From contig NZ_KB894709.1 of NCBI RefSeq assembly GCF_000374565.1, forward strand, positions 1 to 48,587: a stretch of DNA of 48,587 bases, read 5' to 3'. This document shows, one piece after another, positions 27,688 to 42,050 of the stretch. The position numbers were made by a program, and so were the translations under genes. Positions within the stretch are counted from its first letter, which is position 1. Every line of letters starts with the position of its first letter. The notes beneath the pieces are model-generated. The model was not told where the DNA came from. It made no database searches and was given only the letters and a program-made list of their open reading frames with translations. This stretch comes from Siminovitchia fordii DSM 16014 = CIP 108821. GTDB lineage: Bacteria > Bacillota > Bacilli > Bacillales > Bacillaceae_C.

Positions 27688-27755
27688 AAAGATGGGGTCT
27701 GACCCCCATCACACTAAAGCGTTAACGAATTAACGCAGCGGGGGTCAGACCCCTT
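27688..27755. terminator. Nested-hairpin terminator after moaB
   Basis: Two copies of a near-palindromic block, GGGGTCTGACCCC (27694) and GGGGTCAGACCCC (27741), pair with each other and enclose a second stem, GCGTTAA/TTAACGC. T-runs follow on both strands. It ends moaB transcription and insulates argG. Confidence 0.8.
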
Positions 27756-39164: not shown

Positions 39165-39191
39165 CAAAGAAGCGGGGAATCTGTCCCCGCT
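39165..39191 (-). terminator. Terminator after sspA
   Basis: AGCGGGGA and TCCCCGCT form an 8-bp stem, extended by flanking A/T pairs. It lies 25 bases after the sspA stop codon. Confidence 0.85.
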
Positions 39192-39215
39192 TTAAAGCCA
39201 TTCATATTAAATTTG

Positions 39216-39416
39216 TTATCTTACTTGTCCACCCATTTGTTGTTGAGCCATTGATACAAGGCGCTTGGTGATTTCACCACCTACAGATCCGTTAGCGCGT
39301 GAAGTAGTGTCTGCTCCAAGATTAACTCCAAACTCTTGTGCAATTTCAACTTTCATTTGGTCGATCGCTTGCTCTGCACCAGGAACAAGGATTTGATTGC
39401 TGTTGTTGTTTGCCAT
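39216..39416 (-). CDS. sspA: Small acid-soluble spore protein, alpha/beta type
   Basis: A 66-residue SASP that coats and protects spore DNA. Both conserved stretches are present: the GPR protease site region ([21 protein letters not shown]) and the C-terminal [17 protein letters not shown] 39416 follows AAGGAGGTG. The ATG lies in one arm of a perfect 14-bp inverted repeat, described separately. It should be made only in the forespore. Confidence 0.97.
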
Positions 39417-39463
39417 GTGTTTTCACCTCCTTGTAAGCCTATATTGTGCGAAAACACATGGCA
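39411..39463 (-). promoter_or_regulatory. Start-codon-masking inverted repeat at sspA
   Basis: TGCCATGTGTTTTC (39411-39424) and GAAAACACATGGCA (39450-39463) are exact reverse complements, 25 bases apart. In mRNA reading in from thiI, the sspA ATG would lie in the stem and the ribosome-binding site in the loop. A candidate sigma-G promoter (TGAATG at 39465-39470, CACAATA at 39442-39448, minus strand) would start RNA inside the loop, leaving the ATG free. Confidence 0.6.
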
Positions 39464-39518
39464 TCATTCAATAAAAAGTTGGTAATTCTTCCTAATTTAT
39501 GGAAGCTAGTAAATTTGT

Positions 39519-40730
39519 TTAAAAAAGATCAAGATTTTTATCATTTACTGGGTCATTTTCGCCAAGTTTTATGACGAGTGTCTCCGTTTCTTCCACAGCT
39601 TTTGCCAGAAGCGGTCCCCAATCAAACTTGCTTTCAAAAGAAACAATTTTATCCGTTTTTGGCCGGGTTTTTGGAGCCGGCGGTGTAAAAATAGTACAGC
39701 AGTCTTCATAGGGCCTGTTGGAAATATCCAAAGTATCTATTTCTGTAGCGATTTTAATAATCTCCACTTTGTCCATTGCAATTACAGGGCGAAGAATCGG
39801 AGTGTTTGTCACTTCATTGATTGCCAGCATGCTTTCCATCGTTTGGCTCGCCACCTGTCCAAGGCTTTCGCCGTTAAAAATGGCAAGCGCATCATTTTTC
39901 TTTCTTATTTCATCCGCAATCCGAAGCATCATTCTTCGGGTGGAAGTCATCGTATATCCTTCAGGAATTTTCTCGTGGATCTTTTCTTGGATCTCGGTAA
40001 AAGGGACAATGTGGACTTTGATCCGACCGGAAAATTCTGCGAGCTTCGCAGCAATATCGAGCACCTTTTGTTTCGCTCTTTCACTTGTATATGGAGGGCT
40101 GTGAAAATGTACTGCCTCAATGTCCACTCCCCGTTTCATTGCCAAGTACCCTGCAACAGGGCTGTCTATCCCACCGGACAGCATCAACACCCCTTTACCT
40201 GATGATCTTGCAGGAAAACCGCCCTGTCCTTGAACAACTTCCCCCGAAACAAACGTTCCCTCTCGTCTTACTTCGACAATAACATTGATATCAGGTTTTT
40301 TTACATCAACTGTAATATCTTCTACATTGATTAAAATATGTGAACCAATTTCATAATTCAGTTGCTGAGTATCATATTCAAATGATTTATCAGACCTTCG
40401 GGCTGATATTTTAAAAGTTCGTCCCGGAATGTGGGATTGTTCCACAACATGAAGGGCTGCAGCTTTGATTTGATCGAGGTCTTTTTCAGTCCTGATAGCA
40501 GGGCTGAAGGATTGAATACCAAACACTTTGGCTAGTTTTTCCTTAACCTGATCATACGGCTCACCATTCAACAGAATATACATCCTGTCATGTAATGTCT
40601 CAATTTTTGTCTTCGGGAACCTGCGAAGCATCATCTGGATGTTGTTTTTAAGCTTTCTGACAAAAAATTTACGGTTCCTTCCCTTTAATGTCAGCTCTCC
40701 ATATCTGATTAAAATTCTGTCATATTTCAT
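39519..40730 (-). CDS. thiI: tRNA 4-thiouridine sulfurtransferase ThiI
   Basis: A 403-residue enzyme for 4-thiouridine in tRNA and sulfur transfer to the thiazole of thiamine. The N-terminal ferredoxin-like/THUMP region (YDRILIRYGELTLKGRNRKFF) is followed by the PP-loop LMLSGGIDSPVAGY near residue 183. There is no C-terminal rhodanese domain, as in other Bacillus ThiI, which rely on the adjacent desulfurase. Its ATG overlaps the desulfurase stop by 4 bases. Confidence 0.95.
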   Translation of the reverse strand: MKYDRILIRYGELTLKGRNRKFFVRKLKNNIQMMLRRFPKTKIETLHDRMYILLNGEPYDQVKEKLAKVFGIQSFSPAIRTEKDLDQIKAAALHVVEQSHIPGRTFKISARRSDKSFEYDTQQLNYEIGSHILINVEDITVDVKKPDINVIVEVRREGTFVSGEVVQGQGGFPARSSGKGVLMLSGGIDSPVAGYLAMKRGVDIEAVHFHSPPYTSERAKQKVLDIAAKLAEFSGRIKVHIVPFTEIQEKIHEKIPEGYTMTSTRRMMLRIADEIRKKNDALAIFNGESLGQVASQTMESMLAINEVTNTPILRPVIAMDKVEIIKIATEIDTLDISNRPYEDCCTIFTPPAPKTRPKTDKIVSFESKFDWGPLLAKAVEETETLVIKLGENDPVNDKNLDLF

Positions 40731-41878
40731 TTGTTTCGCCTCATTACTTTATTTAATCGGTCTAAAACTTGTTTGAATGCATGGACCATCTTCTCGGCTT
40801 CTTCCAGCGTATTTTCGTAGGAAAGGCTGATTCTGATGGCACCAGTTGCTTCTTCCTCTGGGACTCCCATTGCTCTCAAGGTGCCGCTTGGGGTTTTGTC
40901 CTTTGATGAACATGCGCTTGTTGTTGAAATAAAAATCCCTTGTTCTGCAAGCGCGTGAACAATGACTTCACCTTTTAACCCCACAGCTGAAACATTTACA
41001 ATATGCGGTGCGGCATGATCCCTAGGTGTATTGATTACAAGACCGGGGACTTCTTCCAGCTGATGGATGATATATTTTTTTATTTCCAACAAACTTTCCA
41101 TGTTGGACTTCCTTTTATTCTCTGCTATCCGGAAAGCCTTGGCCATTGCTACAATACCGCCTGTATTTTCTGTACCGCTCCTTAGACTTTTCTCTTGGTT
41201 TCCTCCTGAAATCAGCGGAGCGATTTTTACACCTTTCTTTACAAAAAGAAAACCGCTGCCCTTCAAGCCGTGAAATTTATGTGCGGAAAAGGTGCATAAG
41301 TCAATATTAGATCTGTATATATCAAGGGGAACCTTACTCGCTCCCTGAACATTGTCAACATGAAAAAGCACTTTTGGAAAATCTTTTAACCGGCGCCCTA
41401 CCTCTTCGACGGGCTGAATCGTTCCAACTTCGTTATTCACATGGATCATGGACACAAGAATCGTTTTATCTGTTACTGCACGAATCATATCATCCGAAGA
41501 CACGCGTCCATCTTTATCTACATCAATATAAGTGATATCAAATCCGAGCATACGAAGCTGTTCGCATGCTTCCGTGACAGCCGGATGCTCTACACTTGTT
41601 GTAATAATATGATTGCCCCTGCTGCGATGCATGAGGGCAGTTCCCTTAATCGCAAGATTATTGCCTTCCGAACCGCCCGATGTAAAAATAATTTCATTTG
41701 AGTGGACACCGGCCAATTGGGCAATTTGCTCCCGGGCAGTTGTCAGCAACTGCTCCGACTTTCCACCAAGAGCATGGAGGGAAGATGGATTTCCAAAAAA
41801 TTCCTTATTCACTTGAACAAACGCCTGAAGGACTTCTTCATATGGTTTAGTTGTTGCACTGTTGTCAAAATATATCAT
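40727..41878 (-). CDS. nifZ: Cysteine desulfurase partner of ThiI (NifZ type)
   Basis: A 383-residue PLP enzyme that takes sulfur from cysteine. The PLP lysine is in FSAHKFHGLKG, and the persulfide-carrying cysteine in TTSACSSKDKTPSGTL. The start YFDNSATTKPYEE is typical. ATG 41878 was chosen as in related genes; a GTG five codons upstream is the alternative. In B. subtilis the NifZ-ThiI pair serves tRNA 4-thiouridine synthesis. Note that the name nifZ here is the B. subtilis usage, unrelated to nitrogen fixation. Confidence 0.93.
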   Translation of the reverse strand: MIYFDNSATTKPYEEVLQAFVQVNKEFFGNPSSLHALGGKSEQLLTTAREQIAQLAGVHSNEIIFTSGGSEGNNLAIKGTALMHRSRGNHIITTSVEHPAVTEACEQLRMLGFDITYIDVDKDGRVSSDDMIRAVTDKTILVSMIHVNNEVGTIQPVEEVGRRLKDFPKVLFHVDNVQGASKVPLDIYRSNIDLCTFSAHKFHGLKGSGFLFVKKGVKIAPLISGGNQEKSLRSGTENTGGIVAMAKAFRIAENKRKSNMESLLEIKKYIIHQLEEVPGLVINTPRDHAAPHIVNVSAVGLKGEVIVHALAEQGIFISTTSACSSKDKTPSGTLRAMGVPEEEATGAIRISLSYENTLEEAEKMVHAFKQVLDRLNKVMRRNK

Positions 41879-42050
41879 TATAAGGTCACCCACTAACCTG
41901 TTTCATTAATATAATCAATCATACATAATAACACATGAAGACTCTAATTTAAATAATTGGTGACCGTAAAATTTCTTGAAAAGGGACTTGGCTTGTTCCA
42001 ACCTCAACCCTTGTTGAGGAAATGATGGAATCCCTATTTTATGGGTGCTT

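Follow-up and report, generated by a model that had tools for sequence, protein, structure and literature searches.

A hairpin in the predicted sigma-G promoter of sspA that probably silences read-through mRNA from thiI in Siminovitchia fordii and other Bacillales

The gene sspA of Siminovitchia fordii DSM 16014 lies on the minus strand of contig NZ_KB894709.1, at positions 39216 to 39416 of the 48,587-nucleotide stretch of DNA that was analysed here (the window), and the subject of this work is the short leader between sspA and the thiI gene upstream of it. The sspA open reading frame (ORF) encodes 66 amino acids and matches Pfam PF00269 at 81.1 bits (gathering threshold 22), which identifies the product as an alpha/beta-type small acid-soluble spore protein (SASP). 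SASPs are made in the forespore and coat the spore DNA, and sspA is a standard example of a gene under sigma G. Its neighbours upstream, transcribed in the same direction, are thiI (39519 to 40730; tRNA uracil 4-sulfurtransferase, TIGR00342, 414.2 bits) and, overlapping it by 4 nt in the nifZ position, a cysteine desulfurase gene (40727 to 41893), which matches NifS/IscS-type NCBIfam models, only one of them above its cut-off. The distance from thiI to the predicted sspA −35 element is 49 nt. A first-pass annotation of the window had seen no convincing terminator between thiI and sspA, and our search for terminator-like sites between the thiI stop codon, which ends at 39519, and sspA likewise found none in the window. 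The first strong intrinsic terminator 3′ of thiI is located after sspA, at 39170 to 39192 (minus strand).

It was found that the sspA leader contains a perfect inverted repeat, as the same annotation had described. Its arms, 39450 to 39463 and 39411 to 39424 (minus strand), are 14 nt long, complementary at 14 of 14 positions and separated by 25 nt. The 3′ arm, GAAAACACATGGCA, comprises the end of the spacer of the ribosome-binding site (RBS), the sspA start codon (ATG at 39414 to 39416) and codon 2. The window holds just two perfect repeats with arms of at least 14 nt and loops of 3 to 40 nt, and none was obtained in 60 dinucleotide shuffles. The 5′ arm, TGCCATGTGTTTTC, is the spacer of a predicted promoter on the minus strand with a −35 element GAATG (39465 to 39469) and, 18 nt away, a −10 element CAATATA (39440 to 39446), which we take from their resemblance to the consensus to be recognized by sigma G. 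The −10 element had been expected in the loop, and it is indeed within CACAATATA (39440 to 39448), which sits between the arms. Similar elements are present in the leader alignment described below, with a CACANTCTAT-like −10 in most rows and a GNATG-like −35. Judging from the −10 distance, transcription would be expected to start within 39431 to 39437 (minus strand), so that the sspA sigma-G transcript would begin without the 5′ arm; the arm is inside the promoter spacer, within the window as well as in the conserved register, and 5′ of this consensus-based start.

As RNA, the pairing extends to 39448, and the predicted fold is a stem of 16 pairs (39448 to 39463 with 39411 to 39426, one of them G-U) with a minimum free energy of −31 kcal/mol and a z-score of −2.76; 3 of 200 shuffles were equally good. 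The first-pass annotation had placed both the RBS and the ATG within the repeat. The start codon and codon 2 are the buried part, whereas the Shine-Dalgarno (SD) sequence GGAGG (39426 to 39430, minus strand) is mostly in the loop. Folding of the predicted sigma-G RNA, which begins 3′ of the 5′ arm, gave a weaker structure, at −11.3 kcal/mol, in which the SD region pairs with approximately codons 9 to 11 (39380 to 39438, minus strand). Two other identities for the stem were rejected: an intrinsic terminator, because AACAACAACAGC follows the stem without a U tract and the terminator scan was negative there, and a known riboswitch or RNA family, because a cmscan search (Rfam, E ≤ 1) of locus L001, which contains the sspA leader, returned no match.

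These features suggest a mechanism in which RNA reading through from thiI would carry the spacer of the sspA promoter as RNA, and the spacer would fold over the sspA start codon (in some lineages, the SD) and block translation in the growth phase. In the forespore, the sigma-G polymerase would begin just 3′ of the spacer and produce a transcript without the 5′ arm that would be freely translated. We consider it highly probable that the promoter-embedded hairpin silences read-through sspA mRNA while the sigma-G transcript stays translatable. From the sequences we infer the transcription start, whether and how much read-through occurs in cells, the size of the translational block and its benefit; the same holds for the leak-proof action that had been proposed and for a gain from avoiding SASP in growing cells.

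The conservation of the pairing was evaluated in 233 loci (L043 to L275), made up of 30 loci, 23 new ones, 100 stretches (one of just 235 bases) and 80 named loci that were the best 80 of 306. The 23 new and 80 named loci were listed with the better thiI matches first, and nearer relatives are therefore over-represented. The thiI-sspA order is common in Bacillales, and a SASP gene was present in 86 of the 100 fetched stretches; 65 of the 233 loci, including many from Lactobacillales, Domibacillus and Alkalibacillus, yielded no SASP gene close to thiI. Removal of these 65 and of 12 duplicate leaders left 156 distinct leaders. Counting the stem as present at 10 or more of 13 pairs, we found it between the promoter spacer and GAAAACAC-ATG-GC in 122 of the 156, and its register relative to the −10 element and the ATG was fixed in 118 of these 122, the other four requiring a shift of 1 to 2 nt. 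The B. subtilis group (L276 to L295, examined by eye) keeps at least 9 contiguous pairs in 19 of 20 leaders; L290 has an A-C mismatch adjoining the sspA start codon. The SspA proteins of L276 to L280 are presumably identical or 99% identical to that of B. subtilis.

Conservation of the arms with covariation had been named as a check on the switch, and both were observed. When each of 40 genera was represented by a single leader, pairing held in 487 of 520 cells and 23 cells had changed on both sides; neither 2000 shuffles of the letters on the 3′ side nor 2000 of whole arms went beyond 462 paired cells and 10 double changes. In a set of 64 genera, with rows unselected for pairing, 629 cells paired and 43 had changed on both sides, and 2000 whole-arm swaps reached at most 593 and 26. 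Sliding the partner by 1 to 3 nt left no more than 55.2% of cells paired, down from 93.7%, in the 40 genera, and no more than 50.6%, down from 75.6%, in the 64 genera. Double changes outside the end pair −8 occurred in 13 family labels (anonymous families and one NCBI label). For example, codon 2 is GCN, CCN or TCN and is matched by GCCAT, GGCAT or GAYAT in the spacer of many leaders, with exceptions that include L060, L108 and L145; the pair types found at −4 were TA, AT, TG and CG, and those at −1 were GC, TA, CG and AT. Two such changes within a single stem were present in L194 (family f1), L180 (f17), L188 (f13) and L185 (f5). Mispaired cells were G-U in 98 cases (41 of them at the end pair −8) and A-C in 13, an excess that points to pairing in coding-strand RNA rather than a DNA palindrome. 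As a paralogue control, 29 SASP leaders labelled as not linked to thiI, which include one that is actually linked (L032), had a mean pairing energy of −12.4 versus −16.5 for the 8 thiI-linked leaders of that set. In dinucleotide shuffling, p was ≤0.05 for 2 of the 29 control leaders versus 110 of the 156 thiI-linked leaders and >0.2 for 21 of the latter.

Where the stem is lost, the spacers differ in sequence and the −35 and −10 elements are still recognizable. Among the 34 stem-less leaders, the spacer of 11 (for example, L182, L175, L226, L233, L258 and L262) pairs with the SD at p ≤ 0.05 by spacer shuffling, when about 2 would be expected by chance. Different bases in the same place thus serve the same target function, which argues that selection acts on hiding the ribosome site.

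Terminators were counted at ΔG ≤ −9 within approximately 150 nt before the −35 element. One is present between thiI and sspA in 2 of the 122 stem leaders versus 8 of the 34 stem-less leaders (Fisher's exact test, 8e-5, with rows treated as independent). A looser count (ΔG ≤ −6, whole gap) gave 5 of 122 and 6 of 34, and the hand addition of L067 and L113, whose terminators are outside the search region of the main count, gave 3 of 122 and 9 of 34. It appears that where a thiI-sspA terminator is present the stem tends to be missing, which the proposed mechanism would predict; L123 and L135 are exceptions that have both. A terminator follows sspA in 150 of the 156 leaders. This usual position after sspA and rare position before it indicate that sspA is normally inside the predicted thiI transcription unit, sharing the nifZ-thiI terminator.

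The predicted accessibility of the ribosome site was calculated for both RNAs of each leader, and a site was called occluded when the AUG or SD had an unpaired probability below 0.2. In the stem rows, which were chosen for the stem, this was so for 122 of 122 read-through RNAs versus 18 of 122 sigma-G RNAs, and in the SD-pairing group for 10 of 11 versus 4 of 11. We also scanned 869 genes, in 760 kb of the same genome plus the window, with a contiguous-stem score for pairing between spacer and start region, and sspA ranked first of the 869. Nine genes scored 24 or more versus none in a control in which the upstream segment was shifted 150 nt further up.

Several observations weigh against this interpretation. 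Ranked by raw duplex energy over the entire 38 nt upstream, sspA was just fifth among 84 starts in the window, against its uniqueness; since a T-rich spacer will pair with any SD, this measure is uninformative, and it was dropped as a test of uniqueness and replaced by register-fixed pair counts and the contiguous-stem scan. Neither the start-codon stem nor SD pairing is present in 23 of the 156 leaders, several of which (for example, L073, L083, L085, L136 and L171) also have no terminator. Predicted occlusion by itself is weak evidence and partly unspecific, because it was also obtained for 16 of the 23 read-through RNAs of this neither-mode group (and for 7 of 23 sigma-G RNAs). Six of the eight stem-less leaders with a terminator belong to family f22, so that the association with terminators comes from few lineages. 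The double-change count in 64 genera is only mildly register-specific, at 43 versus 37 when the partner is slid by −2, and the G-U excess at pairs +1, +2, +3 and +5 alone, 10 versus 4 genus-distinct cases, is not significant (p 0.18). Within Siminovitchia, 2 of 6 genomes (L044 and L046) have one mismatch in the stem. A tree of sspA coding sequences had few supported branches and gave 1 to 5 independent pairs, which is underpowered, and tree-based pairs gave way to counts with a single leader for each genus and to family labels.

Other explanations of the repeat were weighed against the same data. The stem could be the 3′-end structure of the nifZ-thiI mRNA, stopping trimming exonucleases and stabilizing thiI mRNA, with occlusion of sspA as a by-product. 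It is indeed located shortly past the thiI stop codon (the −35 element follows the stop at a median distance of about 42 nt, the stop being misplaced in a few rows), and it would form in the read-through RNA only. A structure of this kind has no need of the start codon, yet in 11 stem-less leaders it is the SD that this spacer pairs with, and a good terminator follows sspA in nearly all leaders; we regard this explanation as unlikely. Less likely again is an operator, in which a dimeric regulator would bind the repeat as DNA across the sigma-G promoter and the arms would owe their symmetry to this binding. Symmetric operators would also yield matching changes in both arms, and the separate conserved box described below suggests that there are protein sites here, but pair types as varied as the four found at −1 could hardly be read by one protein, the mispairs are mostly G-U, and the SD-binding spacers differ in sequence from those of the first type.

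That the hairpin is a regulated leader, a thermosensor or ligand-bound element, of sporulation transcripts begun further upstream seems to us very improbable. The conserved upstream box could belong to another promoter; on the other side, L001 has no Rfam match, the loop consists of the −10 and SD sequences without an evident ligand-like core, and the association with terminators fits read-through. An accidental match of the arms would require just that the spacer is conserved for the promoter and the RBS for translation, and both regions do have these other functions, the sequence flanking the SD being constrained. Chance is nevertheless the explanation to which we give the least credence, as none of the 2000 shuffles or swaps among genera reached the observed pairing, the compensatory changes contradict it, the spacers differ upon loss of the stem with the −35 and −10 elements recognizable, and the genome scan gave nine genes against none in its control. 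Silencing of read-through sspA mRNA is thus the reading that we prefer.

The scan also indicated further candidates. The nine top-scoring genes include sigG, of which the scan recovers the stem corresponding to the known proposal, and spoVIF (an NCBIfam equivalog; G000:C1:573777-574031, L374), in which a 14-bp anti-SD sequence lies directly 5′ of CATAATATA. We take CATAATATA to be a sigma-K-like −10 element, and the anti-SD sequence would then be the spacer of that promoter. In relatives, 22 spoVIF leaders were locatable in 30 loci, and 10 of these pair at p ≤ 0.05; spoVIF is likely to be a further case of promoter-spacer silencing. Other members of the nine look unrelated, such as an ORF on the strand opposite the sspB-type SASP gene and one that is Fur-box-like by eye. 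In a gene that by eye resembles an FAD/Rieske oxidoreductase (G000:C1:82347-83909), the start codon is covered by a 13-bp stem, with arms about 50 nt apart. It may be, although the chances seem to us slightly below even, that late-sporulation promoter spacers nested in other transcription units are selected as antisense to their own RBS, which would restrict translation to transcripts begun at the cell-type-specific promoter, and that sspA, sigG and spoVIF exemplify a general insulation device that replaces terminators.

Upstream of the promoter, a box AATTACCA is located 10 nt 5′ of the −35 element (39480 to 39487, minus strand). Boxes of this type were found in 142 of the 156 sspA leaders, with exactly AATTACCA in 94, and the box ends 31 to 33 nt 5′ of the −10 element in 126 leaders and at 21 to 22 nt, about one helical turn closer, in 7. 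The box is probably an activator site, for which SpoVT is a candidate factor; according to PMC5061766, no consensus for SpoVT is known. In B. subtilis-like genomes, a TTTACCA box is also found upstream of the sspB promoter. A promoter-like stretch with the TTTACCAACTTTTTAT box of sspA is present at L296:1501-1549 (G000:C1:669138-669186), preceding a small ORF that is itself 5′ of the sspB-type gene. The whole box-promoter pattern had 5 matches, two of which are the sspA site, versus 2 in a backward control.

In the leader of this genome's sspB-type SASP gene, a tRNA-like element (L002:1405-1473; G000:C1:669833-669901) lies between the promoter and the RBS and consists of a 7-bp acceptor-like stem, a 5-bp T-arm with a 7-nt loop and an NCCA end. 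The element was also seen in L328, L321, L333 and others and is found in many Bacillales, among them the B. subtilis-like genome G351, where it again precedes the sspB-type gene. Across 24 leaders, 99.3% of cells were paired and 23 were double-change cells, and none of 500 shuffles was as high on either measure; four pairs had a double change, which is not unusual (94 of 500 shuffles). With a model of the element, 25 of the 30 best genome matches precede a SASP gene (by pattern), and genuine tRNAs (L335) are among the weaker matches, of about 82 nt. ARAGORN called no tRNA in the sspB leaders tried, Rfam gave a single sub-threshold tRNA match on them (25 bits versus 29, L321), and a literature search found nothing on a tRNA-like sspB leader. 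The only other perfect inverted repeat of at least 14 bp in the window, at 27694 to 27753 (27694/27740), is of the GGGGTCTGACCCC type and is flanked by argG-like and moaB-like genes (by eye). Because GGGGTCAGACCCC-like letters are visible in L008 and L009, it is perhaps a repeated element. A Mn2+ riboswitch (yybP-ykoY) is located close to the genome's third SASP gene (L003:2607-2712, minus strand).

If the preferred interpretation is right, the hairpin would explain how sspA stays silent directly behind thiI, usually without a terminator between them, and the leader would be a clear case of promoter spacer DNA constrained by RNA pairing. Reporters carrying "the sspA promoter" may include a translational lock. 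This would be directly testable in B. subtilis 168, the close relatives of which (L276 to L295) mostly keep the pairing. A literature search found nothing on read-through into sspA; older SASP papers are outside its coverage, and an earlier notice of the repeat is possible. Two papers on Rho (PMC5540618 and PMC12350095) did not contain sspA, thiI, ytbJ or nifZ in a word search of the main text.

Comparison with known systems supports the placement of sspA among the read-through-silencing promoter hairpins of T4 gene e and sigG. In sspA, the 5′ strand is in the predicted promoter, the 3′ strand covers the start codon or SD, and upstream transcription can enter, being on the same strand with no intrinsic terminator. 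The likeness to T4 lysozyme drawn in the first-pass annotation holds, the same arrangement of early and late transcripts being described in PMC3014915. According to this paper, the leaders of T4 gene e, soc and I-TevI hold the SD and/or AUG in a helix; for gene e, the helix forms in long early transcripts, late promoters just 5′ of the RBS give RNAs without the 5′ strand, and lysozyme synthesis is reduced 100-fold. The T4 cases are phage genes with a late phage promoter, whereas sspA would use a cellular sigma-G promoter in a developmental, compartment-specific switch. For read-through transcripts of B. subtilis sigG (spoIIIG), a silencing hairpin is proposed in PMC5942855, with the same logic as for sspA, and a corresponding stem is present at sigG of this genome. 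The two genes differ in that sigG encodes a regulator under sigma F and sigma G, whereas sspA encodes a structural spore protein beside a housekeeping operon, and in that pairing at sspA is documented here order-wide, with compensatory changes and an SD-pairing form. A 5-bp RBS hairpin of sigG also dampens initiation of this sporulation gene (also PMC5942855); it forms in the gene's own transcript, which the sspA stem cannot do if the predicted start is right. What sspA would add to these precedents is order-wide compensatory evidence, a form that binds the SD, a trade-off with terminators and a hint of recurrence.
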